Of a stretch of 49,735 nt of DNA, positions 1,083-20,404 are shown in pieces (position 1 is the first letter of the stretch; the number at the start of each line of letters is the position of its first letter). Origin of the DNA: Verrucomicrobiota bacterium (GTDB lineage: Bacteria; Verrucomicrobiota; Verrucomicrobiia; Chthoniobacterales; Terrimicrobiaceae); assembly GCA_026398275.1 (NCBI GenBank), contig JAPLTF010000078.1:1-49735 (forward strand), given 5' to 3'. The notes under the pieces are model-generated. The model was given only the letters and a program-made list of their open reading frames with translations. It did no database searches and was not told the origin of the DNA. Made by a program: the position numbers and the translations under genes.

Positions 1083-3665
1083 ATGAGAGCAAAGCTCACG
1101 GCCGTTGCTTTTTTCGCCGGATTGATCGCAGCCTCCGGCCAGCCGGTCTCGGGAGAGCCGGAAATCCGCAGGGCGCTGCCGGTCAACACGCCGGCACCGA
1201 CAGAAATGCCGGGATGGATGGACCGCTTGCCAGCGCCAACACCTGCGCGGCGCGAAGTCCCTGCAGCCACACCAATCCCTGTCGCCACCCCGATTCCCAT
1301 GGATGCCGCCACTCCGCGGCCGTCCTCGCCTTACACCCCGTCCGAACAACCGTTCCGGCCAGCGCCAGGCGGCGAGGGCGCACAGGCACCACAACCGGAC
1401 GAGAGCGGCAGCATCCGGATCGCGCCATCCTCCGGTCAGATCGTTGACCAGGCCCGCGGGCAGCTGGAGCTGGCGAACAGCCTTTACTCGCGGAAAATGT
1501 ATGACCTCGCGATACCGGAATATGAGAAGTTTCTGATCTCATCGAGTCCGGCGGAAGGCCGGGATGGCGCCCTGTTCCGCCTCGCCGAGTGCCACCGGAT
1601 GCTGGGCAACACGCCCTCGGCCAGATCGGGCTACGAGAAGCTGGTGATGGAGTTTCAGAAGGGCGAGTTCGCCGGCGCGGGCGCCTACCGCCTCGGCGAA
1701 TTTCTGTTCGGCGAAAAAAACTACGAGGCGGCGAACACGCAGTTCCAGAACGCGGCCCGCGAATCCAAGGACGGCGAGGTCCGCCTCACCGCGCTGTATT
1801 TTTCCGCCCGCAGCCTCGACTACCTCAAGCAGGACAAGGAGGCCCTCGACGCCTACAAGTCGGTGCTGGCTGTGCCGGGGAAAAACCCCTACCGCGACCA
1901 CGCGCTCATGGCGACCGCCGACATCGCCTCCCGCGACGGCGACAAGGAGGCCGCCCTGGCCGCCTACGAGGATCTGGGAAAATCCGGCAAGAGCGCGATG
2001 GCGGTCGAGGCTGCCGTGAAGGCTGCGGCGCTGGCCTCGGATCTCGGCCAAAAGGAAAAGGCGGCCGCGCTGTTTGAAAAAGCCATCGATAATCCGGATG
2101 GCGGGGACTGGAAGTCCGTGGCCGTCATCGGACTCATGCGGCTCCGCTACCAGGCCTCCTCCTACAAGGCGCTCGTGGACATGGCGGCCGCTGCGGACCA
2201 GCTTCCTGCGGATACCCGCCCGGAGGCGCTCCAGATCATCGCGGCGTCCCACCGGCAGCTCGGCAACAACCTCGAAGCCCGCAGGACCTACGACCGGATC
2301 CTCAAGGAATTCCCCGACTCCGCCCCCTCCGATGATGCGCGCTACCAGCGGCTGGTCAGCCTCTACGCGCTGAAGGACAAGAACCTCTCCGCGGAGGTCG
2401 ATGCGTTTTTGGAAAAGACCACGAACCCGAAGGAGCGCACGCAGGCACTGCTCCTCAAGGCGGAGACGCTGTTCAAGCAGGCCGACTATGCCGGTGCCGG
2501 CAAGGTCTACGAAGGCCTCCTCTCCCGCGAGCTCGCCGACGACCTCCGCGCCGACGCCCTCTACAAGCTCGCATGGTGCCTGGCCAACACCGGCGACCAC
2601 CCCGCCGCCTCCTCGGTCTACACCGAATTTTTGCAGAAATTTCCCGACCACAAGCTCGCCGCCACCGCGCTCGCCCAACGCGCGCTCTCGAAGCAGGAGA
2701 GCAAGGCGTTCGACTCCGCGATCGAGGACTTCGACCTGATCGCGGAAAAATATCCCGGCACGAAGGAACACGAGCTCGCCCTCCAGCAGAAGGCCCTGAT
2801 TTTCGGACAGCTCAAAAAATATCCGGAGATGACGCAGGCGTTTGAAAAGCTGCTCGCCGACTTCCCGAAAAGCGCCGCCGCCGCCCAGGCGAATTTCTGG
2901 CTCGGATGGGCGGCGTTCGAACAAAAGGATTACAAGGCCGCCATCCCGAAACTCGAAACCGCCCGCACCCTGGATGCCGCGCAATACGGCGAGCGCGCCT
3001 CGCTGCGGATCATCCTGTCGTATTACTACATGGAGGACCGCGAATCCGTCGCCAGGGAGGCAGCCAATTACAAGGGGGGAAATCTTCCCGCCGAGATCAC
3101 CCTCTGGCTGGCGTCCCGTCTCGTGGACGAGGGCAGCTACGCCAAAGCCGAGGCCCTTCTGCTTCCGCTTGCCAGCAACCCGGCCGCCCTGACTCCCGAC
3201 GCATGGATCAACCTCGGCGAGTCGGAGATCCGCCTGGGAAAATTCCAGGAAGCGCGCGGCCCGATCGACAAATTCCTCGAGACCGCCCGCGATTCGGCCA
3301 CCCGCGCGCGGGGCCTCATGGCCAGCGCTCAAATCCATCTCGGAATGAAAGATCCCGCTCAGGCCGCCCCCGTCGTCGAGGAGGTCCTGCTCCTCCAGCC
3401 GGAGGGGCGCCTGAACGCCGAGGCCCGGATCCTGCAGGGGGACATCCAGCTTGCCCAGGGGAATGCCGATGCCGCGGCGCGCTCGTATATGACGGTCGCC
3501 GTGCTCCTCGACGACCCCGCAATCACGCCACGCGCACTGCAGAAGGCGGCGAATGCCTACCAGCGCTCGAACAACCGGTTCGAGGCGGAAAAAGCCCTTG
3601 CACAACTCCGTGAAAAATATCCAGATTTCCAGAAATCGTCCAAGCCTCCGAAAACCAAATCATGA
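1083..3665 (+). CDS. Large exported tetratricopeptide-repeat protein
   Basis: This 860-aa protein starts at ATG 1083. An in-frame start at 1026 lies inside the palindrome and would replace the signal peptide with non-signal residues. The signal sequence (MRAKLTAVAFFAGLIAASG) is followed by a Pro/Thr/Ala linker (about residues 30-110). TPR-type helical pairs then run almost to the C-terminus, with many A..L..Y.K.L..FP elements such as YDLAIPEYEKFL and YKAAIPKLETA. The FP-ending repeats resemble YbgF/CpoB and BamD-like outer-membrane assembly proteins. That, plus the upstream TolQ/ExbB-type channel, suggests a periplasmic scaffold linked to envelope energetics; this is inference. It overlaps the next gene by ATGA (3662-3665), so the two are translationally coupled. 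Confidence 0.8.
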   Translation: MRAKLTAVAFFAGLIAASGQPVSGEPEIRRALPVNTPAPTEMPGWMDRLPAPTPARREVPAATPIPVATPIPMDAATPRPSSPYTPSEQPFRPAPGGEGAQAPQPDESGSIRIAPSSGQIVDQARGQLELANSLYSRKMYDLAIPEYEKFLISSSPAEGRDGALFRLAECHRMLGNTPSARSGYEKLVMEFQKGEFAGAGAYRLGEFLFGEKNYEAANTQFQNAARESKDGEVRLTALYFSARSLDYLKQDKEALDAYKSVLAVPGKNPYRDHALMATADIASRDGDKEAALAAYEDLGKSGKSAMAVEAAVKAAALASDLGQKEKAAALFEKAIDNPDGGDWKSVAVIGLMRLRYQASSYKALVDMAAAADQLPADTRPEALQIIAASHRQLGNNLEARRTYDRILKEFPDSAPSDDARYQRLVSLYALKDKNLSAEVDAFLEKTTNPKERTQALLLKAETLFKQADYAGAGKVYEGLLSRELADDLRADALYKLAWCLANTGDHPAASSVYTEFLQKFPDHKLAATALAQRALSKQESKAFDSAIEDFDLIAEKYPGTKEHELALQQKALIFGQLKKYPEMTQAFEKLLADFPKSAAAAQANFWLGWAAFEQKDYKAAIPKLETARTLDAAQYGERASLRIILSYYYMEDRESVAREAANYKGGNLPAEITLWLASRLVDEGSYAKAEALLLPLASNPAALTPDAWINLGESEIRLGKFQEARGPIDKFLETARDSATRARGLMASAQIHLGMKDPAQAAPVVEEVLLLQPEGRLNAEARILQGDIQLAQGNADAAARSYMTVAVLLDDPAITPRALQKAANAYQRSNNRFEAEKALAQLREKYPDFQKSSKPPKTKS

Positions 3666-4189
3666 GAACCGCACTCCTTGTCCTCCTCACCGCTGCCGCC
3701 GCATGGGCCGCCGAGATTACCCTTCACGAGCAGGCCCTGCCCGAGGTGAAAGCCACGATACAGGTTCCCGAGGGCTGGACATCGTCCACCGAGAGCGACG
3801 AGGGGGTTTTTGTCTACCACCTCGGCAAAGGCGGCAAGCCGGAGGAGCCGGACCCCATGGCCATCACGCTCAGCGTCACCACAAAGGTCCCTGAGCGTAC
3901 GACCCAGTCGCCTTCGGCCTATGCCGCCGCGCTGATCGACATGTCGCAGGATGAAGGCCCGAATACCCCGGCCCAGAAAGGCCAGCTCAGCGGCCTTCCC
4001 TCGCTCCGGTCGGAATACGGCTTCGAGAGCGACAAGGGCAAGATGCGCGCCGTGAACATCGCGATTCCGAATGACAAAACCGGCACCCTCTACTTCTTTG
4101 CCTGGCAGGCCCCGATGAACGAGCCTGCCGAGGCGGAGGCGATCCGGGACAAGGTCGTCGAGTCGGTGAAGTTTGATCCCGCGTTCTGA
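3662..4189 (+). CDS. Small secreted protein of unknown function
   Basis: The 175-aa product has a short signal peptide (MRTALLVLLTAAAAWAAEIT) and a soluble domain of mixed charge. Features include an early IQVPEGWTSSTES segment and alternating beta-strand-like stretches (AITLSVTTKV, AVNIAIPNDKTGTLYFFAW). The fold looks like a small beta-rich periplasmic protein of the kind with a 'peptide plus Trp-containing strand' start, but I cannot name a family. Its start codon overlaps the stop of the TPR gene, and the HtrA gene starts nine bases downstream, so it belongs to the same operon. A role in the envelope is suggested only by the signal peptide and its neighbours. Confidence 0.7.
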   Translation: MRTALLVLLTAAAAWAAEITLHEQALPEVKATIQVPEGWTSSTESDEGVFVYHLGKGGKPEEPDPMAITLSVTTKVPERTTQSPSAYAAALIDMSQDEGPNTPAQKGQLSGLPSLRSEYGFESDKGKMRAVNIAIPNDKTGTLYFFAWQAPMNEPAEAEAIRDKVVESVKFDPAF

Positions 4190-4197
4190 TCCGGACC

Positions 4198-5292
4198 ATG
4201 AGGAACCTGCTGCGCTTTCTCGTTTTCGTCGCTGCGGCCGCCTGCGCCGTCGGAGCCCTGTATTTCTGGAAGACCGTTGCTCCCGCCCCGCTCTCCCCTG
4301 CCCCCGCGCTCCCGGCATCACACGGACGCCTGGCGGAGATCGATCGCGAATTCACCTCCCTCGTCGGAAACGTCCTGCCTTCTGTGGTCAGCATCAATGC
4401 GATCCCTGCGGATGCGATGGATCCGCGGGCCAACCTCCTGCGAAGCCTGCTCGGCGCAGGCCCCGGAGCCAAGCCTCCCGGCCAGCTCGGCTCGGGCGCG
4501 ATCGTTTCGAAGGACGGCTACATCGTCACCAATGTGCATGTCATTGAAAATGCCGGAGCGGTTCAAATCCAACTCAACGACGGACGCTCGCTCCCGGCGA
4601 AGTTTGTCGGCGCGGACCGGATCGCCGATGTCGCCATACTCAAGATCGATGGCGGGGATTTCCAGCCGCTCGAGTTTGCGGACTCCGATGCCGTGCGCAT
4701 CGGGCAGATGGTGATCGCCGTCGGCAACCCCTACGGCCTCCAGGAAACCGTCACCAAGGGGATCGTCAGCGGCAAGGGCCGCAAGATGATGAGCGAGGCG
4801 GCGAACGAATTTTTCCAGACCGACGCCCCGATCAACCCCGGCAACTCGGGAGGGCCGCTCGTGGATCTCAATGGCCGGATCATCGGCATCAACAACTTTG
4901 TCATCCAGAACACCGACGGCATCGGCTTCGCCATCCCGGCAAACACCGTCCGCAAAGTGTATGAAAATATCCGCGAGTTCGGCCACGTGATCCGCCCGTG
5001 GTTCGGAGTCATCATGATGGAGCTCACCCCGGCCGTGGCCGCGCAGCTCGGCCTGCCGGATGCCAGAGGCGCCCTCATCCAGGCGACCATGGAAAACTCC
5101 CCGGCAGCGCGGGCGGGGCTGAAACCCGGCGACGTCATCCTCTCCTACGGCGGCCGCCCGATCGCCGATTACAACGACCTTCGCAACAGGGTCGCGGAAA
5201 CGGAACCCGGCCGGGAGGTTTCCCTCAATGTCATCCGCGAGGGCCAGAGCCTTAAAATTCCTGTCAAAATTGAAAAGCAGCCCGGCGAATAG
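4198..5292 (+). CDS. HtrA/Deg-family trypsin-like serine protease with one PDZ domain
   Basis: The 364-aa product is an envelope quality-control protease anchored by an N-terminal TM helix (LLRFLVFVAAAACAVGALYFW). The chymotrypsin-fold triad is intact: His114 in TNVHVI, Asp144 in RIADVAILKID and Ser217 in NPGNSGGP. A single C-terminal PDZ domain spans about residues 272-360 (ARAGLKPGDVILSYGGRPI). One PDZ plus an uncleaved-looking anchor resembles DegS or short DegQ proteins. DegS-like enzymes sense misfolded outer-membrane proteins and start a sigma-E response, but no anti-sigma factor gene is nearby, so the substrate is unknown. It is followed after 40 bases by a membrane TPR protein. Confidence 0.92.
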   Translation: MRNLLRFLVFVAAAACAVGALYFWKTVAPAPLSPAPALPASHGRLAEIDREFTSLVGNVLPSVVSINAIPADAMDPRANLLRSLLGAGPGAKPPGQLGSGAIVSKDGYIVTNVHVIENAGAVQIQLNDGRSLPAKFVGADRIADVAILKIDGGDFQPLEFADSDAVRIGQMVIAVGNPYGLQETVTKGIVSGKGRKMMSEAANEFFQTDAPINPGNSGGPLVDLNGRIIGINNFVIQNTDGIGFAIPANTVRKVYENIREFGHVIRPWFGVIMMELTPAVAAQLGLPDARGALIQATMENSPAARAGLKPGDVILSYGGRPIADYNDLRNRVAETEPGREVSLNVIREGQSLKIPVKIEKQPGE

Positions 5293-5332: not shown

Positions 5333-6388
5333 GTGACCCAGTCCTCGCAAGCATCACCTCCGATTCCCCGCCAGCCGATTGGAGCGACATTCGCTGTTGC
5401 CGTTGGCATCCTGGGGTTTTTCCTCGTCCTGCAATTCCTCGCGGTCGCCTGGTATTTTCTGCCGATCCTCAGGGAGAAAGTGGTCGAGAGCGCCACGGTT
5501 GCCAGCGTCCAGCCCGCCGCGGAAAATCCGGTTTCTCCGGCGCAAACGTCCGGCACGGCAGCGCCCGAACGCCCGCAGGCGGACCCCGCGCTCGTTCAAA
5601 AAATCAGCCGGCTCGTCACGGATTCCGACCGCGCCTACCGCGTGGGAGATTTTGAAACCGCACTGAAAGGGATCAACGAGGCGGCCGACCTGCTGCCCGA
5701 CGATCCGGGCATCCTCCTCCGCCGCGCCCGCCTCCTCGAGAGCATGCAGCAGCCCTCCGACGCCGCAGCCGACTATGCGCGTGTCGCCGCGCTCCCGGGC
5801 CTCTCCCCGGAACTGCGCGCCCAGGCGGAACGCAAGCTCACCCAGCTCGGCGGCAGCGTCTCGGGAAATCCGGCCGCAACTCCTTCCAGCAGCCAGACTG
5901 TGGACGATGCCCCCTCGCGCAGCGGCGCGGATGTGCGTGAAGACACCGGCCTCCAGCCCGGCTCCAGCCTCGGGATCGTGGATGCCAGGCTGCGCGACGG
6001 AACGCCGGGGACCAAAGTCCTGCGCGTGGCCATCAAGGCCCGCCCGGGAACCACCGTGGACACCAGGCAGATGAAGCTCCACGTGTTCTTTTACGAAAAG
6101 GACGATGCGGGAGAAGTGCAGCTGACCGAATCCAAAGTGGTTTCCCAATGGATCAGCCCGCCGGTCAACTGGGCGGACAACGAGCCGGAACTTCTCGACG
6201 TGACCTACATTCTTCCCGACAGCACCCTCCCCGGAAGCGCCGCTTCGAACGGCTCTCCCGGCAGAACATTCGTGGGCTACATCGTCGGCATTTACTACAA
6301 CAGCGAACTTCAGGATACCCGGGCCGACCCGGGCAATCTGGCCAAAAAGTTCCCGCTGCCGCTGTATCTTAAACAAGAGACCCCATGA
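5333..6388 (+). CDS. Membrane-anchored TPR-containing protein, unknown function
   Basis: The start is GTG 5333. The 351-aa product has a cytoplasmic Pro-rich N-terminus and one TM helix (about residues 20-45, FAVAVGILGFFLVLQFLAVAWYF as a long hydrophobic run). A Pro/Ala linker, one or two TPR-like helix pairs (residues about 85-170) and a low-complexity Ser linker follow. The C-terminal beta-rich domain (about 200-350) contains VLRVAIKARPGT and MKLHVFFYEKDDAG. The last stretch, FVGYIVGIYYNSELQD, is well ordered, not disordered. I do not recognise a named family. The stop overlaps the start of the receiver-like gene (ATGA), so it is co-translated with the receiver/pseudokinase locus. Confidence 0.7.
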   Translation: MTQSSQASPPIPRQPIGATFAVAVGILGFFLVLQFLAVAWYFLPILREKVVESATVASVQPAAENPVSPAQTSGTAAPERPQADPALVQKISRLVTDSDRAYRVGDFETALKGINEAADLLPDDPGILLRRARLLESMQQPSDAAADYARVAALPGLSPELRAQAERKLTQLGGSVSGNPAATPSSSQTVDDAPSRSGADVREDTGLQPGSSLGIVDARLRDGTPGTKVLRVAIKARPGTTVDTRQMKLHVFFYEKDDAGEVQLTESKVVSQWISPPVNWADNEPELLDVTYILPDSTLPGSAASNGSPGRTFVGYIVGIYYNSELQDTRADPGNLAKKFPLPLYLKQETP

Positions 6389-7257
6389 AAATACTGGTAG
6401 TGGATAACGGGCCCGGTGTGGCCGAAGCGTTGGCGCAATCTCTCCAGACCCTCGGATGGCCGGGAGCAGGAGCAGCATCCAACTCCGACGAGGCTGTGGA
6501 ATGGATCAACCGGCACGGAGGATGCGACATCCTCGTCACGGAGGTCTTCCTTCAGCCTGCGGACGGATTCACCCTCCGGGAAACCATCCAGCCGCATCTC
6601 CCAGAGATGAAAACCATTTTCACATCGATCCACGATGCCTCGGCTTACACCGGGCGGATGGCCGGAAACGGATTTCTCCCGGCACCGCTGACGGCAGAAG
6701 TCTTGAACGCCGCACTCCGCCGGTTGACTCCCGTTTCCATCCCGACCCCTTCCGCGCCTGCCGTGTCCGCCAGACCGACACCAAGACCCACCGCGACTCC
6801 CACCGCGACACCCACCGCGACTCCCACCGCGACTCCCACCGCGACTCCCACCGCGACTCCCACCGCGACTCCCACCGCGACTCCCACCGCGACTCCCACC
6901 GCGACTCCCGACTCCCACCGCGACTCCCACCGCGACTCCCACCGCGACTCCCACCGCGACTCCCACCGCGACACCCACCGCGACTCCGGCCCAGCCCAAG
7001 GCGGTTGCCCATCCTCAAGCGAGAGCCACTGTCTCGTCGCAACCAAAAGCAGTTGCACCGCTCGCCTCCGCACCGACCCCCAGAGCCGCTGTCAAAACCG
7101 ACGCGCAGCCATTGGCTGTCCAAGCGACGCCGGCCCAGCAAGCCGTCGCGGTAAAGGCTGTCGCGGTAAAGGCCGTCGCGCCGAAACCGGCCGCCGGCAA
7201 GCCGCGTCCCGCTGCAGCCTCCGCGACCGGCGCTCCAATCCTGGGATCCGAGATTGA
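6385..7257 (+). CDS. Receiver-like N-terminal part of a frameshifted multidomain protein
   Basis: Residues 1-120 follow the response-regulator receiver fold (MKILVVDNG... CDILVTEVFLQPADGF ... GNGFLPAPL). The phosphoacceptor Asp is replaced by Glu53 and the conserved Lys of the KP motif by Ala, so it should not be phosphorylated normally. From about residue 130 the chain becomes TPTA repeats encoded by a 12-bp tandem array. A 7-bp partial unit at 6904-6910 then throws it out of frame, giving an Asp-Ser-His-Arg repeat and a low-quality tail to 7257. In the shifted frame the array reads TPTA again and continues into the pseudokinase gene. I therefore read this as the front half of one gene of roughly 830 residues (6385-8887). 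Either the gene is broken or phase-variable, or there is an assembly error. Confidence 0.8.
   Translation: MKILVVDNGPGVAEALAQSLQTLGWPGAGAASNSDEAVEWINRHGGCDILVTEVFLQPADGFTLRETIQPHLPEMKTIFTSIHDASAYTGRMAGNGFLPAPLTAEVLNAALRRLTPVSIPTPSAPAVSARPTPRPTATPTATPTATPTATPTATPTATPTATPTATPTATPTATPDSHRDSHRDSHRDSHRDSHRDTHRDSGPAQGGCPSSSESHCLVATKSSCTARLRTDPQSRCQNRRAAIGCPSDAGPASRRGKGCRGKGRRAETGRRQAASRCSLRDRRSNPGIRD
6784..6982 (+). repeat. 12-bp tandem repeat array (unit ACTCCCACCGCG)
   Basis: A degenerate leading unit (6784-6795) is followed by nine units (6796-6903), one of them starting ACACCC. A 7-bp partial unit ACTCCCG (6904-6910) comes next, then six more units (6911-6982), the last again starting ACACCC. 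Whole units keep the frame and encode Thr-Pro-Thr-Ala; the partial unit shifts it. The antisense strand gives long Gly-Val-Ala-Val ORFs that are shadows. Such an array is a natural site for slipped-strand length change. Confidence 0.92.
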
Positions 7258-8887
7258 ACTCCCCCCCGACCAACTGGTTGGCCAAACCATCGGGAACTAC
7301 CATGTGGAGGCCCGTATCGGAAAAGGTCCCATGGGCCCCATCTACCGCGCCAGCCAGACGAATATTGAAAGGCTGGTCCGGTTCTATGTTCTGGATGCCG
7401 CGCTCACCTCGGATAAAAACGCGATCACCCGGTTCCTTTCGAACGCCTCCGCCAAAGCCAAGGCGACCAACCCTGTCATCATGGCGGTCTACGAAGCCGG
7501 CGACAGCGAAGGCGTGTATTTCTACTCCTGCGAATACGTCCCCTGCCGCTCGATCGGCCAGCTCCGCGAATCGGGTGGCACCCTGGATGAGACCACCGCC
7601 CTGTCGGTTCTCAAGGCTGCCGGCGAAGCCCTGGACTATTTCGCCCGCGAAAAAATCGAGCACGATCTGCTCACAGAGAACGCGTTGCTGATAGGCCCCG
7701 GAAACCGCATCCGGGTCGCGAACATCGCTTCGAACAAGGCCGCGCAGGCGTTTGATGTGAAGGCGGAGATGCGCCGCGTCGGCGAGATTGTTCTCGGCGC
7801 GCTCCCGACCTCCGGCACCCAGAAAGCCAGGGACCTGGCCACGCAGCTTGCCGATCCCGAAAACTGCCCTCCCTCGTGGGCGGCCTTCCTCCAAACGGTC
7901 GCCACCTACCAGCCCAAGGCTGTCATCGCCGATGCCTACAAGCTCGATGCCCAGGAGCGCGCAGCCATCCGGATCGTCGAGGAATCCAAGAAGCGCCAGA
8001 AACGCGGGATGATCATCAACTCGATGGTCTCCCTCGTCCTTTTGGCAGCAGCCCTCTTTGCCATCAAGTATGCCCTCAGCGGCTCCAAAAGCGCCACCGT
8101 CCGCAGCCTCGAGGAGATGGTTGAAGTCCCGGCCGGCGAATTCATTTACCAGGATGGGAAGAAAGAAACCCTGCCGGCATTCTCCATCGACAAGTATGAG
8201 GTCACGATCGGCCAATACGCCCAGTTCCTCGACTTCCTTGAGAAAAATCCGGACAAGGTCGCGCAGTATGAGCATCCGGAGCAACCGAAGGGAAAAACCC
8301 ATGTGCCGGTGGAGTGGGCGGACAAAAAGGAGCTCACCCCCCCGTTCCCGGGATATTACCAGCGCGCCAAGCGGTGGGGACGCTACAAGGAAGCCGCGCT
8401 CGACGTGAATTCCCCGGTCTTCGGCGTGGATTGGTTTGACGCCTATGCCTATGCCAAGTGGAAAGGCCGCCGCCTGCCCACCGAGCTGGAATGGGAAAAA
8501 GCCGCCCGCGGAACAAGTGGGGCAAAGTTTTCCTGGGGAAACGAGGAGGATGCCTCCCACTCCCGCGCAAACACCGGAGCCGATCTCGATCCCGATCCCA
8601 AAAAGGGCGGAGACAAGGACGGCTTCAAGCGCTGGAATCCGGTGGATGCGAAGAAAGGCGACAAGAGCCCATTCGGTATGGTGGGCGCTTCAGGCAATGT
8701 CTCGGAGTGGACCGGATCCATTGTGCCCAGCCCGGAAGGCGGCGGAAAAGTGCCGGTGATCCGTGGCGGAAATTGGAAGACAAATGATCCGTCCGTGACC
8801 CGCCGCATCCTCCTGCTGATGGACCTTCAGCAGGATGACGCCCTCGGCTTCCGCACCGCCTCCGACACTGCACCCGCCAAGAAATGA
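7112..8887 (+). CDS. Pseudokinase / TM / FGE-sulfatase-fold protein (C-terminal part of the frameshifted locus)
   Basis: The listed start is a TTG with no convincing ribosome site. The same frame is open back through an Ala/Pro/Val linker into the TPTA array, so it probably joins the receiver half. A kinase-like domain begins near residue 60 (IGNYHVEARIGKGPMGPIYRA) but lacks the ATP-binding Lys (VRFYVLD), has EHDLLTEN in place of HRDLKPEN and has no DFG. A TM helix follows (MIINSMVSLVLLAAALFAIKY). The C-terminal half is a formylglycine-generating-enzyme/sulfatase-modifying fold: VEVPAGEFIY, IDKYEVTIGQYAQFLDF, RLPTELEWEKAARG, GNVSEWTGS, VIRGGNW, LGFRTASD. This domain has no cysteine, so true FGE oxidase chemistry is unlikely. 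A ligand-binding or scaffold role is inferred. It overlaps the next gene by ATGA. Confidence 0.88.
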   Translation: MAVQATPAQQAVAVKAVAVKAVAPKPAAGKPRPAAASATGAPILGSEIELPPDQLVGQTIGNYHVEARIGKGPMGPIYRASQTNIERLVRFYVLDAALTSDKNAITRFLSNASAKAKATNPVIMAVYEAGDSEGVYFYSCEYVPCRSIGQLRESGGTLDETTALSVLKAAGEALDYFAREKIEHDLLTENALLIGPGNRIRVANIASNKAAQAFDVKAEMRRVGEIVLGALPTSGTQKARDLATQLADPENCPPSWAAFLQTVATYQPKAVIADAYKLDAQERAAIRIVEESKKRQKRGMIINSMVSLVLLAAALFAIKYALSGSKSATVRSLEEMVEVPAGEFIYQDGKKETLPAFSIDKYEVTIGQYAQFLDFLEKNPDKVAQYEHPEQPKGKTHVPVEWADKKELTPPFPGYYQRAKRWGRYKEAALDVNSPVFGVDWFDAYAYAKWKGRRLPTELEWEKAARGTSGAKFSWGNEEDASHSRANTGADLDPDPKKGGDKDGFKRWNPVDAKKGDKSPFGMVGASGNVSEWTGSIVPSPEGGGKVPVIRGGNWKTNDPSVTRRILLLMDLQQDDALGFRTASDTAPAKK

Positions 8888-9807
8888 GGCTTTATCTCGT
8901 TCTGGCAGCCCTCCTCCTGGCTGCCCTCACCGCAAGTGCCCAGGTGCAGGTGGATATCTCGATGAAGCGGACGCTCTACATCGCTTACGAGCCGATCCTC
9001 GTCACCGTCACAATCACCAACCTCTCCGGAAACGAACTCGCCCTCGCGGACAGCGGAAACAACAAGTGGTTCGGCTTGCAGTTGGAAACGCTCGACGGAC
9101 GGCCCATCGCGCCGGTGAACGGTGAATATGCCAACCAGCCGATCGAGCTCGGACCCCAGCAGAAAATCTCCCGGACCGTCAACCTCACCCCCATCTTTCC
9201 CGTCAGCGAATTCGGCGGATACCGCCTGAAGGCAAATGTCTTCTCGCAGCAAAACAACCGGTTCTTCGCGTCGCCGTCACTCAATTTTGAAGTCACCGAC
9301 GGCCATGTGATCTGGCAGAAATCCGTCGGTGTGCCCGACGGTTCGCCCGGCGGCGGCACCACCCGCCTGATCTCATTGCTCTCGCACCGGCTTCCGCAGA
9401 GCACCCAGCTCTACATCCGGATCGAGGACAAGCAGGCGGGGATCGTCTACTGCACGCACCAGCTCGGAAAGTTTCTCACCTTCGGGAACCCCAACATCCT
9501 CCTCGATACCCAGAACAGGATTCATATCCTTCAGAACGTCGCCCCGAAATCCTTCGTTTACTCCAAGATCGGACTCAACGGCGAGGTGATGGAGCGCAAG
9601 TCCTACAACGAGTTTTCCACCCGACCGGAGCTCCGCCGGGGAAGCGATGGAAGCGTTCTGGTTATCGGCGGGCAGGTTTACGATCCAACAGCCACACCGC
9701 CGGAACAATCTCTGCCGACACTGAGCGACCGCCCGGTTCCCCTCCCCGGGCCAAAGGCCAAACCCACCCCGGAAGACAAGCGTCCGGAAAATCTCCTCTC
9801 GCGATAA
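8884..9807 (+). CDS. Secreted protein of unknown function, last gene of the envelope cluster
   Basis: The 307-aa product begins with a clear signal peptide (MRLYLVLAALLLAALTASAQ). It has an immunoglobulin-like or adhesin-like N-terminal beta domain (VDISMKRTLYIAYEPILVTV, then ITNLSGNELAL), which is typical of periplasmic proteins that open with a 'potency of being lent/held' strand order. A second beta-rich region holds DTQNRIHILQNV. The C-terminal 40 residues are Pro-rich and probably unstructured. It overlaps the pseudokinase/FGE gene by four bases, so it is a likely partner of that protein outside the cytoplasmic membrane. I do not recognise a named family. No terminator is obvious in the 180 bases that follow. 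Confidence 0.72.
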   Translation: MRLYLVLAALLLAALTASAQVQVDISMKRTLYIAYEPILVTVTITNLSGNELALADSGNNKWFGLQLETLDGRPIAPVNGEYANQPIELGPQQKISRTVNLTPIFPVSEFGGYRLKANVFSQQNNRFFASPSLNFEVTDGHVIWQKSVGVPDGSPGGGTTRLISLLSHRLPQSTQLYIRIEDKQAGIVYCTHQLGKFLTFGNPNILLDTQNRIHILQNVAPKSFVYSKIGLNGEVMERKSYNEFSTRPELRRGSDGSVLVIGGQVYDPTATPPEQSLPTLSDRPVPLPGPKAKPTPEDKRPENLLSR

Positions 9808-9989
9808 CCTCGCGGAAGTCCCGGAAGATGCGCCACCCTCCCCGCAAATCGCAGAAGCGCCCGTCACGAATCCTCACAAATAAGGAGGGACTGGCTACAT
9901 ACACAATTTAAAACGTGGCCGCCTTTTTCCATCTGCTTAACCTTATTCGCGTTCGTTCGCTTGATTCGCGGGAAAAATCCGTTTTCGGG

Positions 9990-10514
9990 ATGAATGTTCT
10001 CAAGGCAGGGCTGCCCCTCATTCCGCTTCTCCTCGTTGGGTGCGCCAGCACTGCCCCGCTGCCGGAGGAAAGCGAACCGGTCGTAAGCATGATGGCGGAG
10101 CGACTGGAGCTCGCGCACGATGTTGCCTGGGCCAAATGGGCGGACGGCCTGCCGGTCAGGGATCCTGCGCGCGAGGCTGCAGTCCTCGGCAAGCTCGTCC
10201 GCCAGGGAGAGGCTGCGGGAATCGAGGAGGCTTTGGTTTCACGGTTTGTCCGCGCGCAGATCGAAGCCTCGTGCCTCGAGCAGGAAGCCTGGATGGCCAA
10301 ATGGCGGAAGGGCGATCCCCTTCCCCCCGGAGAACCTCCCACGCTGGAAAGCCTTCGCACGCGGATCGACCACATGTCCTCCCTCCTCCTCGCGGAATGG
10401 GCGGCCGCCCCAACCACTCCCCGCCCCGCCGCAAGGCAGCGACTCTTGAAGTCGGTGGCCGACCCCCGCTCGGCAACCGTCGCCGCATCGGGATTTTTCG
10501 ACGCTGACCGGTAA
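9990..10514 (+). CDS. Secreted chorismate mutase-like lipoprotein (AroQ-gamma type)
   Basis: ATG 9990 gives a 174-aa lipoprotein precursor with lipobox LLVGC; an earlier in-frame start at 9915 would bury the signal. Residues about 35-110 match the periplasmic AroQ (monofunctional chorismate mutase) class. The conserved elements are RLELAHDVAWAKW, then RDPAREAAVLGKL, then FVRAQIEASCLEQEAW. Chorismate mutase turns chorismate into prephenate, but chorismate is normally cytosolic, so the role of exported forms is unclear. Other exported AroQ proteins have cleaved signal peptides, so lipid anchoring is unusual. The gene stands alone; a palindromic repeat begins 12 bases after its stop. Confidence 0.72.
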   Translation: MNVLKAGLPLIPLLLVGCASTAPLPEESEPVVSMMAERLELAHDVAWAKWADGLPVRDPAREAAVLGKLVRQGEAAGIEEALVSRFVRAQIEASCLEQEAWMAKWRKGDPLPPGEPPTLESLRTRIDHMSSLLLAEWAAAPTTPRPAARQRLLKSVADPRSATVAASGFFDADR

Positions 10515-17765: not shown

Positions 17766-19025
17766 ATGTCTCCCCGGCATACCACCTCCGAAGTTCGGCG
17801 GAATCTCATCGGCAGACTTGCGCGGTCGAGGGATTTCTCCATCTCACTGATCCTCCACCTCATCCTCGTCGTCTCATTCGGATCGCGGATCCTCTATGTG
17901 GCGGTCCATGAACCCCCGGAAATCTCCTCCGGAGACGAGCAGTTTGTTCAACCGCAGGCGGCGGCAAATCCTGCCCCGAAGCACGAAAGCCCCGCACCGG
18001 AAATTCCAGATCTCATCAAACAGCCATCCCAGCAACCATCAATCCAGGACATCATTACCCACCTTCCGCCGCCGCAGGAATCCGCGCCGCCGATCGGGGA
18101 TATGGCCTTGAAAACCCCGGCCGGGCTGGATCCGGCAATTTCACGCCCGCTGCCGGCTCCAGATGCAGGACAAATCCCGCGCGAACAGATGGCCGCCATG
18201 AAGGAATTCCGGGAGGACTGGGTGAAACCCTCCTCGGGCGGCAGGCCGCCGGAATACCAGTTCACCGCATACATCGGCCAATACGCCAAGGGGGACTGGA
18301 ACTCGACGAATCTCGTTGCCAACAACAAAGTGGAGAATGGAAGCCTGCCCAACCTTCTGTATTTCATGAGCGCCTTCTCGAACAGCAAGGTGAAAACCAA
18401 CTACCAGAACGTGAAGGCCATCCGCCTCGACAGCGACGAACTGTTCTCGGAAAAACCTCCGTTTATCTTCCTCACCGGAACGCGCGACTTTGAACTCTCC
18501 CCGCAGGAGATCGAAAATTTGCGGAAATACCTCATGATCGGCGGGGCGATCTGGGGCGACAGCTCGGTGCCGGGAAAAAATTCCCGGTTCGACATCGCAT
18601 TCCGCCGGGAGATGAAAAAGGTGGTCGGCAATGTGGACAGCGGCTGGGAGCGGCTCCCCGCGCAGCATCCGGTTTTCACCAAGGCCTTCTTCCCCGAAGT
18701 CCGCGATGTGCCGGCCGGCCTCAACTCCTATCGCGATCCGGTCGAGGTTCTGAAAATCCACGGCGAGATCGCGGTGGTCTACACAGCGAACGATTATGGA
18801 AACATGTGGCAGGTCGGCCTCGACAAGTCGGGGAAGATCGACCTCCGCAGAAATGAAAAGGGCGCGTTCGTCGCCACCAATGAAAAAATCTGGGACAACC
18901 GCGGAACCTACCTCCGGAACCTCACCGAGGATTCGCTCAAACAATCCTACAAGTTCGGCACCAATATCGTCATCCACCTCCTCACCCGCTGGGAAAATTT
19001 GAACACGGGCGCGAGCCGGCTCTGA
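17766..19025 (+). CDS. DUF4159 protein with TonB-like N-terminus (paralogue 1)
   Basis: The 419-aa product has a basic cytoplasmic head and then a single TM helix, SLILHLILVVSFGSRILYV. Its Ser27 and His31 form an SxxxH pair like that of TonB. A periplasmic Pro/Gln-rich spacer (about residues 52-135) follows. The C-terminal DUF4159 domain (about 160-400) includes LPNLLYFMSAF, KAIRLDSDELF, PFIFLTGTRDF and GGAIWGDSSVPG. DUF4159 has an unknown role; its fold is related to glutamine amidotransferase-like or ThuA-like domains in some predictions, and I see no Cys nucleophile. It is followed after about 110 bases by a close paralogue. Confidence 0.85.
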   Translation: MSPRHTTSEVRRNLIGRLARSRDFSISLILHLILVVSFGSRILYVAVHEPPEISSGDEQFVQPQAAANPAPKHESPAPEIPDLIKQPSQQPSIQDIITHLPPPQESAPPIGDMALKTPAGLDPAISRPLPAPDAGQIPREQMAAMKEFREDWVKPSSGGRPPEYQFTAYIGQYAKGDWNSTNLVANNKVENGSLPNLLYFMSAFSNSKVKTNYQNVKAIRLDSDELFSEKPPFIFLTGTRDFELSPQEIENLRKYLMIGGAIWGDSSVPGKNSRFDIAFRREMKKVVGNVDSGWERLPAQHPVFTKAFFPEVRDVPAGLNSYRDPVEVLKIHGEIAVVYTANDYGNMWQVGLDKSGKIDLRRNEKGAFVATNEKIWDNRGTYLRNLTEDSLKQSYKFGTNIVIHLLTRWENLNTGASRL

Positions 19026-19138: not shown

Positions 19139-20404
19139 ATGCCCTCCGCCAAGAGTCCAATGCTCCAGAAGCTGATCGACAAATTCAGCAACTCCCGGGA
19201 TTTCACGATTTCTTTTGTCCTCCACGTCATTCTCGTGGCGATTTTTGGAACAACCGTGCTCTTCCAAGCGGTCCAGGAGCCGCCGGATTTCGAGGGGGAA
19301 GGCGGCGGATTCGTGGGAGGCGACGCAGCGGTCACAGCCCCGCCTCCAACAACCCAGCCGGTCCCGACAACTCCGAATATCACCGTGACCCCCACCACCA
19401 ACCCGGTGAACACCATCACCACGGTTGCCCCGTCGCCCGTGAACTTCACCATGGCGCCGATGATCATCACTCCGGTGAACCCGACGACTCCTCCGGCCGC
19501 GGAAATGAGCGCGCCCAAGCCCTCCACCGCTGGGGCCGACGGGCTCACCGGCGCCCAGGCCTCGGCGATCAAAGCCTTCACCGGCGGCTGGGGCAAGGGC
19601 AGCGGCACCGGCACGGGAACCCGCAGCAGGGAGTTCGAGTTCACCGCCTATCTCGGCCAATATGCCGGGGGAAATTGGAACTCGACGGTCCAGATCACCA
19701 ACAACGTGATCTGGAACGGCAGCCTCCCGAACCTCCTTTACTTCATGCAGTCGAGGTCGAAGAACAAGGTGAAGACCAACTGGAAAAATGTGAAGGCCAT
19801 CAAGCTCGACAGCGACGAGCTGTTCTCGGTCAAGCCCCCGTTCATTTTCATGACCGGAACCCGCGACTTCAGGCTCAGCGACAAAGAGGTGGAGAACCTC
19901 CAGAAATACATCCGCCTTGGCGGCGCGGTCTGGGGCGACAGCTCGGTCCCGGGGAGAAACTCCCGCTTCGACATCGCGTTCCGCAGGGAGATGAAGCGCG
20001 TCATCCCCGATGTGGACAAGGATTGGGAGCCACTGCCGGCCAACCATCCGATCTACACCCAGACTTACTACCCGGAGGTCAAGGAAGTCCCGCCCGGCCT
20101 GAACTTCTATCGCGAACCGATCTATACCCTGAAAATTTACGGCGAGGTCGCGATCATTTACTCCCCGAACGACTACGGCGACATGTGGCAGATCGGACTC
20201 AACGAGCAGGGACAGATCGATACGCGGAGAAATGAAAAAAACCAGCTTGTCGCAATGAACGACGTGATCTGGAATAACAGCAAGGTTTATCTGCGAAACC
20301 TCACGCCCGGCTCCCTTGATGTGACCTACAAGTTCGGAACCAATCTGGTCATCCACCTCCTGACCCGCTGGGAGAACAAGACCCGCACCGCTTCCTCGCT
20401 GTAG
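19139..20404 (+). CDS. DUF4159 protein with TonB-like N-terminus (paralogue 2)
   Basis: The 421-aa product repeats the plan of its upstream neighbour: NSRDFTISFVLHVILVAIFG with Ser25 and His29 as SxxxH, a longer Thr/Pro/Val spacer (about residues 50-155) and a DUF4159 domain. The shared blocks are LPNLLYFMQSR, VKAIKLDSDELF, GGAVWGDSSVPG and NSRFDIAFRREMK. The two catalytic-looking halves are similar while the spacers are unrelated in sequence, as expected for a tandem duplication with free linker drift. The start is an ATG 113 bases after the first gene. A strong terminator follows the stop. Confidence 0.85.
   Translation: MPSAKSPMLQKLIDKFSNSRDFTISFVLHVILVAIFGTTVLFQAVQEPPDFEGEGGGFVGGDAAVTAPPPTTQPVPTTPNITVTPTTNPVNTITTVAPSPVNFTMAPMIITPVNPTTPPAAEMSAPKPSTAGADGLTGAQASAIKAFTGGWGKGSGTGTGTRSREFEFTAYLGQYAGGNWNSTVQITNNVIWNGSLPNLLYFMQSRSKNKVKTNWKNVKAIKLDSDELFSVKPPFIFMTGTRDFRLSDKEVENLQKYIRLGGAVWGDSSVPGRNSRFDIAFRREMKRVIPDVDKDWEPLPANHPIYTQTYYPEVKEVPPGLNFYREPIYTLKIYGEVAIIYSPNDYGDMWQIGLNEQGQIDTRRNEKNQLVAMNDVIWNNSKVYLRNLTPGSLDVTYKFGTNLVIHLLTRWENKTRTASSL

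Follow-up and report, generated by a model that had tools for sequence, protein, structure and literature searches.

From contig JAPLTF010000078.1 of a Verrucomicrobiota bacterium of the family Terrimicrobiaceae, a stretch of 49,735 nucleotides (the window) was analysed and found to hold one copy of a gene whose product carries a receiver-like domain, a linker, a protein kinase-like domain, a single transmembrane (TM) helix and a domain with the fold of formylglycine-generating enzyme (FGE). With moderate confidence, this protein can be regarded as a conserved verrucomicrobial inner-membrane binding scaffold, which probably acts by tethering proteins instead of catalysing reactions and serves as an envelope signalling scaffold. 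The original prediction, made on the nucleotide sequence of the window alone, had already proposed a membrane scaffold that relies on binding instead of catalysis. The dead kinase, the well-kept folds and the conserved neighbouring genes uphold this proposal, whereas two of its supports, namely a chain composed of pseudoenzymes only and the participation of an HtrA protease, did not withstand comparison with relatives.

Domains of the protein and their catalytic sites

The kinase-like domain of the window matches PF00069 with 26.3 bits, which is below the cut-off of 31.7, and most relatives tested score about 50 bits. Its AlphaFold2 model (mean predicted local distance difference test score, pLDDT, of 92) retains the kinase-like fold, as it aligns with PknB over 213 residues with a Z score of 21.6 and a root-mean-square deviation of 2.6-2.7. 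The loss of the ATP-binding Lys and of the HRD and DFG motifs, as originally predicted, was confirmed, since Tyr occupies the position of the VAIK Lys, HRD is degraded (EHDLLTEN) and DFG reads as NIA, with Asn at the DFG Asp position encoded by codon 7721-7723. This condition is not peculiar to the window. The triad of VAIK Lys, HRD Asp and DFG Asp is complete in none of the 93 orthologues, and the DFG Asp position is taken by Asn in 89 and by Gly in the remaining four. HRD Asp, alpha-C Glu, VAIK Lys and the catalytic-loop Asn vary freely among lineages; orthologues and controls are aligned one position apart at the HRD column, and HRD Asp is variable in both registers checked. Furthermore, only about 15 residues separate the DFG position from the acidic residue of helix F, compared with 40-45 in active kinase-FGE controls, indicating that the activation segment is largely gone. 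Judged from its sequence, the kinase is catalytically dead throughout the family, and the sharing of the same losses by all orthologues suggests that they are old and stable.

The receiver-like domain presents a different picture. In the window, it matches PF00072 with 39.4 bits (cut-off 30.2) and has, as had been noted, Glu53 (GAG, 6541-6543) at the position of the phosphoacceptor Asp and Ala100 in place of the KP Lys (6682-6684). Across relatives, Asp53, the Lys and the acidic pocket are intact in 28 of 80 and not in the other 52, which include the window, Prosthecobacter-like and Akkermansiaceae-like rows as well as locus L048, whose tabulated residues are spurious because it has no real receiver. 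The description of the whole chain as pseudoenzymes with kept folds hence stands for the folds and for the kinase (dead in 93/93), but at the level of sequence it is true of the window's genus and of some further lineages rather than of the family; intact residues in homologues, named in the original prediction as what would speak against it, were found for the receiver, and a complete triad was found in none of the 93 kinases. The kinase-FGE tree requires at least seven changes between intact and degenerate states, and Glu53 occurs in well-separated clades, comprising the window's genus, a second genus of the family, the pair of genomes G044 and G052 and a Prosthecobacter-like clade. In G044 and G052 the remaining pocket is intact, so that a nearly pure Asp-to-Glu change is seen. 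On this sequence comparison the receiver is not dead by design, and its loss or replacement by Glu has recurred. Ancestrally, the receiver is likely to have accepted a phosphoryl signal; the number of changes alone cannot separate gain from loss, and the intact form is taken as ancestral because receivers in general are phosphorylated. In many response regulators, Glu in place of the Asp can serve as a phosphomimic (PMC12632262), and by analogy Glu53 in the window's genus may hold a fixed, phosphomimic-like state.

At the C-terminal end, the FGE-like domain is recognized by PF03781 with 130 bits (1.4e-37), with fold matches to human FGE (Z about 24) and EgtB (Z 25.2), while its best sequence match in the PDB is SUMF2 (1y4j, 1.3e-35). 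EgtB/OvoA sulfoxide synthases have a fused DinB-like iron-binding domain; the Pfam scan reported no DinB domain here, and EgtB is a strong fold match. The absence of the catalytic Cys pair, stated in the original prediction, was borne out: the corresponding region, RGGNWKTNDPSVTRR, contains no Cys, and no Cys is invariant in 65 aligned rows. SUMF2, PorK/GldK and EgtB-type proteins of the FGE fold do not use that cysteine pair. All of these proteins are among the matches of the domain, and the missing cysteines are a common feature of the fold and not a specific decay. The TM helix placed between the kinase and FGE domains is also seen in the model and has a hydropathy of 2.41. Lys and Arg residues before this helix outnumber those after it in 52 of 65 rows, and this bias toward the kinase side makes it most likely that the kinase and the receiver reside in the cytoplasm and the FGE domain in the periplasm.

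Distribution of the family and its conserved partners

Among 58 genomes, comprising the window's own genome and its relatives, a near full-length protein match (E < 1e-80) to the kinase-FGE part was obtained in 42. A scan of named genomes yielded 80 loci, about 67 of them orthologues, which are nearly all labelled as Verrucomicrobiota (Chthoniobacterales, Spartobacteria LR76, Prosthecobacter, Akkermansiaceae and Methylacidiphilales), with a few records bearing a less specific or conflicting label, such as L125 labelled 'Betaproteobacteria'. In a phylum-wide search, which scored six candidates per genome at 1e-60 and hence gives a lower bound, at least 23 of 241 genomes were positive. Outside Verrucomicrobiota, the best matches come from KSB1, Anaerolineales, Planctomycetota and others; these are kinase-FGE proteins in which HRD and DFG-type motifs are present and the open frame contains no receiver. 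Among plasmid homologues, no record had a single place covering 80% of the query, and the listed matches concern mostly the FGE part. Four distant members (L121, L122, L128 and L135) are proteins of about 900-1470 residues with long N-terminal parts and Gly at the DFG Asp position, beside which neither a TPR nor a secreted neighbour was found. Between members of the window's genus, protein identity is 73-80% and the ratio of nonsynonymous to synonymous substitution rates (dN/dS) is 0.05-0.21 in all domains, with dS saturated. Together with the 42 near full-length matches, these ratios mark the chain as more than a chance arrangement.

The length of the linker between the receiver and the kinase ranges from about 0 to 300 residues with one outlier of 775, and in many members it is rich in Pro, Ala and Thr. 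Its position is occupied by a DUF4388 domain in G044, G052, G035, G034, G027, L081, L118, L122 and L128. A further shuffled form was observed at L132:4363-5640 and L136:5480-6739, where a DUF4388-like domain is joined to an FGE-like domain without any kinase match.

The gene directly upstream encodes a tetratricopeptide repeat (TPR) protein in 84 of 92 testable loci, and that for a secreted protein (SEC; 8884-9807 in the window) lies downstream in 71 of 101. The conserved synteny suggested in the original prediction was thus found for SEC, whereas HtrA is near the locus in only 14 of 82 and was rejected as a core partner. Clustering of open reading frames (ORFs) from 72 loci revealed no other widely shared neighbour beyond the trio. 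Genomes of an Akkermansiaceae-like family have a shorter form without the receiver and keep the same two neighbours. Every one of the 42 pseudokinase-bearing genomes has SEC, as do 8 of the 16 that lack a full copy. In some of the latter, the TPR and SEC genes are adjacent with no pseudokinase gene between them, or flank a receiver-DUF4388 protein (G042 and G050), and at L157-L164 (families f7, f8 and f13) they likewise lie side by side or flank a receiver-DUF4388 gene. In G039 the SEC gene is located elsewhere. The TPR/SEC pair seems to predate the pseudokinase or to be more basic than it. SEC matches no Pfam or NCBIfam family, and its sequence has no significant counterpart in the PDB; its fold search returned the common immunoglobulin (Ig)-like arrangement for about residues 18-140, with the rest barely covered. 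Within its TPR region, the TPR gene resembles the Amuc_1098 type IV pilus family (7.8e-5), but this weak match was not counted.

Layout of the locus and alternative explanations

Table 1. Features of the window around the pseudokinase gene
Feature	Positions	Strand	Evidence
HtrA/DegP-type serine protease with PDZ domain	4198..5292	+	Pfam Trypsin_2 4.8e-35, PDZ_2 1.1e-15
TPR protein with N-terminal membrane anchor	5333..6388	+	ORF; Pfam TPR (weak); synteny
Receiver-like domain	6385..6774	+	PF00072 7.8e-10; residue table
12-bp tandem repeat encoding Thr-Pro-Thr-Ala linker	6787..6987	+	TRF score 353
CCCGACT, 7 extra bases flanked by the repeat copies at 6895 and 6914	6907..6913	+	frame shift, gene split into two ORFs
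Remaining Ala/Thr/Pro-rich linker, in the frame of 6728-8884; DUF4388/PATAN position in other lineages	6988..7270	+	
Pseudokinase domain	7271..7921	+	PF00069 5.8e-6; AlphaFold2 pLDDT mostly 93-98; PknB Z 21.6
Predicted single TM helix, kinase side Lys/Arg-rich	8009..8065	+	hydropathy 2.41; Lys/Arg 7 vs 3; helix in model
FGE-like domain, predicted periplasmic, without catalytic Cys pair	8102..8875	+	PF03781 1.4e-37; ORF end 8887
SEC, secreted protein with N-terminal signal peptide and Ig-like domain	8884..9807	+	ORF; model pLDDT 89.9; Ig-like fold matches

The overlapping operon described in the original prediction holds for the trio, in which the TPR gene overlaps the start of the receiver ORF, and the end of the kinase/FGE ORF overlaps the SEC gene, by 4 bp each, but not for HtrA, which is separated from the TPR gene by a gap of 40 bp. 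Immediately 5' of HtrA lies a gene for a small signal-peptide protein (3662-4189, + strand) without significant family matches. The trio is adjoined by a gene (9915-10514, + strand) with a chorismate mutase type II domain (PF01817, 7e-13) preceded by an apparent lipoprotein signal (LLLVGCAS), which makes it probably a secreted chorismate mutase, and such a gene also occurs in genome G001 (L034) of the same genus. Further away, 17766-19025 and 19139-20404 (+ strand) encode adjacent, clearly similar proteins that represent a tandem duplication and share an N-terminal hydrophobic helix, a Pro-rich stretch and a similar C-terminal domain.

The single chain assumed in the original prediction is realized in about 30 relatives with enough sequence, where the same domain order was sought and found in one uninterrupted frame that encodes about 650-1000 residues. 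In the window, the receiver ORF (6385-7257) and the kinase/FGE open frame (6728-8884) are in different frames, because the 7 extra bases interrupt the 12-bp repeat array: upstream of them frame one reads ...TPTATPTATP, and downstream frame two reads TPTATPTATP...AQPKAVAHPQ and runs on into the kinase. This split could be genuine biology, in which a soluble receiver ending in a repeat tail and a kinase-TM-FGE protein are made separately or the repeat acts as an on/off switch, since the extra bases sit within a slippage-prone tandem array in which both frames are open throughout, and a TTG start is available at 7112. Such an explanation is nevertheless quite unlikely, as slippage by whole 12-bp units leaves the frame unchanged and about 30 relatives have no split. 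An apparent split in G002, of the same genus, was rejected as support for a real frameshift because it is a scaffold gap, a run of Ns in the linker, and the contigs of L034, L035, L068, L071, L072, L081 and L084 stop in or near the linker, suggesting that short-read assembly struggles there. Taken together, these sequence comparisons make a local assembly error in the repeat most likely the source of the frame break. The same break, along with the decay of the receiver in several lineages and its absence from Akkermansiaceae-like genomes, could be seen as signs of a decaying gene whose degenerate domains are heading for loss. This is very improbable given the low dN/dS (with the stated saturation of dS), the identity within the genus, the conserved neighbours and kinase losses that are common to all orthologues, and pseudogene decay is disfavoured by conservation, dN/dS and shared synteny.

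Another explanation, which is unlikely but carries somewhat more substance, is that the kinase-fold or the FGE-fold domain keeps a non-standard activity and that the protein is a transmembrane enzyme of cryptic chemistry. A pure scaffold would not have to retain Asn in place of the DFG Asp, as 89 of 93 orthologues do, or the VAIK Lys, which persists in 33; the FGE domain resembles EgtB and PvdO besides FGE; and there are precedents both among pseudokinases, such as SelO and SidJ (PMC12599244), and in the PvdO/EgtB-like chemistry of FGE folds. Against such chemistry speak the free variation of HRD Asp, alpha-C Glu, VAIK Lys and catalytic-loop Asn between lineages, the deletion of most of the activation segment and the lack of an invariant Cys in the FGE domain. 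The protein could also be an ordinary two-component output in most relatives, driven by phosphorylation from a histidine kinase through the receiver to the membrane protein, with the window as an exception. The 28 relatives with a complete receiver site favour this; yet 52 of 80 have none, the window and the Prosthecobacter-like and Akkermansiaceae-like rows among them, and a conserved histidine kinase beside the trio was not found, which renders it improbable as a general account, while for lineages with intact receivers it is compatible with the scaffold reading. The scaffold reading itself has to accommodate several contrary observations: the VAIK Lys retained in those 33 orthologues, which makes nucleotide binding possible in part of the family; the two halves of the chain that lie in different frames in the window; and the occurrence of TPR and SEC genes without the pseudokinase, which means that the latter is dispensable for the role of the pair.

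Proposed role and relation to known systems

According to the scaffold reading, the receiver-like domain, a flexible linker and the kinase-fold domain would lie in the cytoplasm, and the TM helix would lead to the periplasmic FGE-fold domain, which would assemble with the products of the flanking genes, the TPR protein and the Ig-fold secreted protein. The kinase-fold domain would not phosphorylate but would serve together with the receiver as docking surfaces, and the system would thereby link a cytoplasmic state to a periplasmic assembly. Complex formation, the direction of the signal and the action of Glu53 as a phosphomimic are what we infer here. More tentatively, a phylum-level pseudokinase family, apparently outside the published ones by their descriptions, might form a catalysis-free transmembrane relay composed of a receiver (phosphorylatable or Glu-locked), sometimes a PATAN domain, the pseudokinase, the TM helix, the FGE fold and the TPR and Ig-fold partners. 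DUF4388 is what we take to be the PATAN domain of cyanobacterial regulators. PATAN response regulators of Synechocystis are linked with the motor of the type IV pilus (PMC7690835), and since such regulators act on this motor, the relay may, by analogy, steer an envelope machine such as pili; this link to pili serves as a lead only. Bacterial pseudokinases are little studied, and the present family is old and conserved, with two constant partners that are now named for direct interaction tests, in a phylum whose gut and soil members attract wide interest. The repeated replacement of Asp by Glu among relatives of intact receivers also offers a natural experiment on how a switch turns into a fixed component.

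The nearest working model appears to be YukC/EssB of type VIIb secretion, which likewise combines a cytosolic pseudokinase, a single TM helix and an extracytoplasmic domain, the topology being a predicted one in the present case. YukC/EssB does not bind ATP and acts as the interaction hub of the type VIIb secretion system (PMC9600267). It has no receiver, its extracytoplasmic part is all-helical instead of an FGE fold, and it is tied to genes of this secretion system, whereas the conserved neighbours here are the TPR and SEC genes only. Another model could be the MviN pseudokinase (ActPs3), in which likewise all three catalytic motifs are lost, the activation loop carries a deletion and a TM segment follows the kinase fold in many members (PMC12599244), but which is actinobacterial, belongs to a membrane protein that functions in peptidoglycan synthesis, serves to recruit an FHA protein and has neither FGE domain nor receiver. 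Receivers without the phosphorylatable Asp are also represented by pseudo-receivers; the present ones differ in that a pseudokinase forms part of the same protein and that only some family members have a degenerate site, while SUMF2, PorK/GldK and other proteins of the FGE fold are not attached to a membrane pseudokinase. A 2025 review of the families of bacterial pseudokinases, among them ActPs1-3, GLW, CP1, DYD and DLHK, makes no mention of Verrucomicrobiota, FGE or receivers (PMC12599244).

The original prediction had regarded the architecture as unfamiliar, which applies to the full combination but not to all of its parts. Transmembrane Ser/Thr kinases of Planctomycetota have the same order of kinase, single TM helix and periplasmic sulfatase-modifying (FGE) domain (PMC11032199); they are reported as Ser/Thr kinases, whereas the family described here does not have active kinase motifs. 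Similarly, kinase-FGE loci outside Verrucomicrobiota (L137, L145 and L146) keep HRD and DFG-type motifs and lack a receiver, and the trio with TPR and SEC was not seen there. Within the same superphylum, Chlamydia Pkn1 carries an N-terminal kinase and a C-terminal FGE domain in one protein (PMC3581485), but is set apart by its description as a validated autophosphorylating kinase that is predicted to be cytoplasmic (PMC5177608). Literature searches for the receiver-pseudokinase-TM-FGE architecture and the gene trio did not find a description. Thus, kinase-TM-FGE proteins and pseudokinase scaffolds such as YukC/EssB and MviN are already known, and what appears new at the level of sequence is their present combination together with the gene trio.

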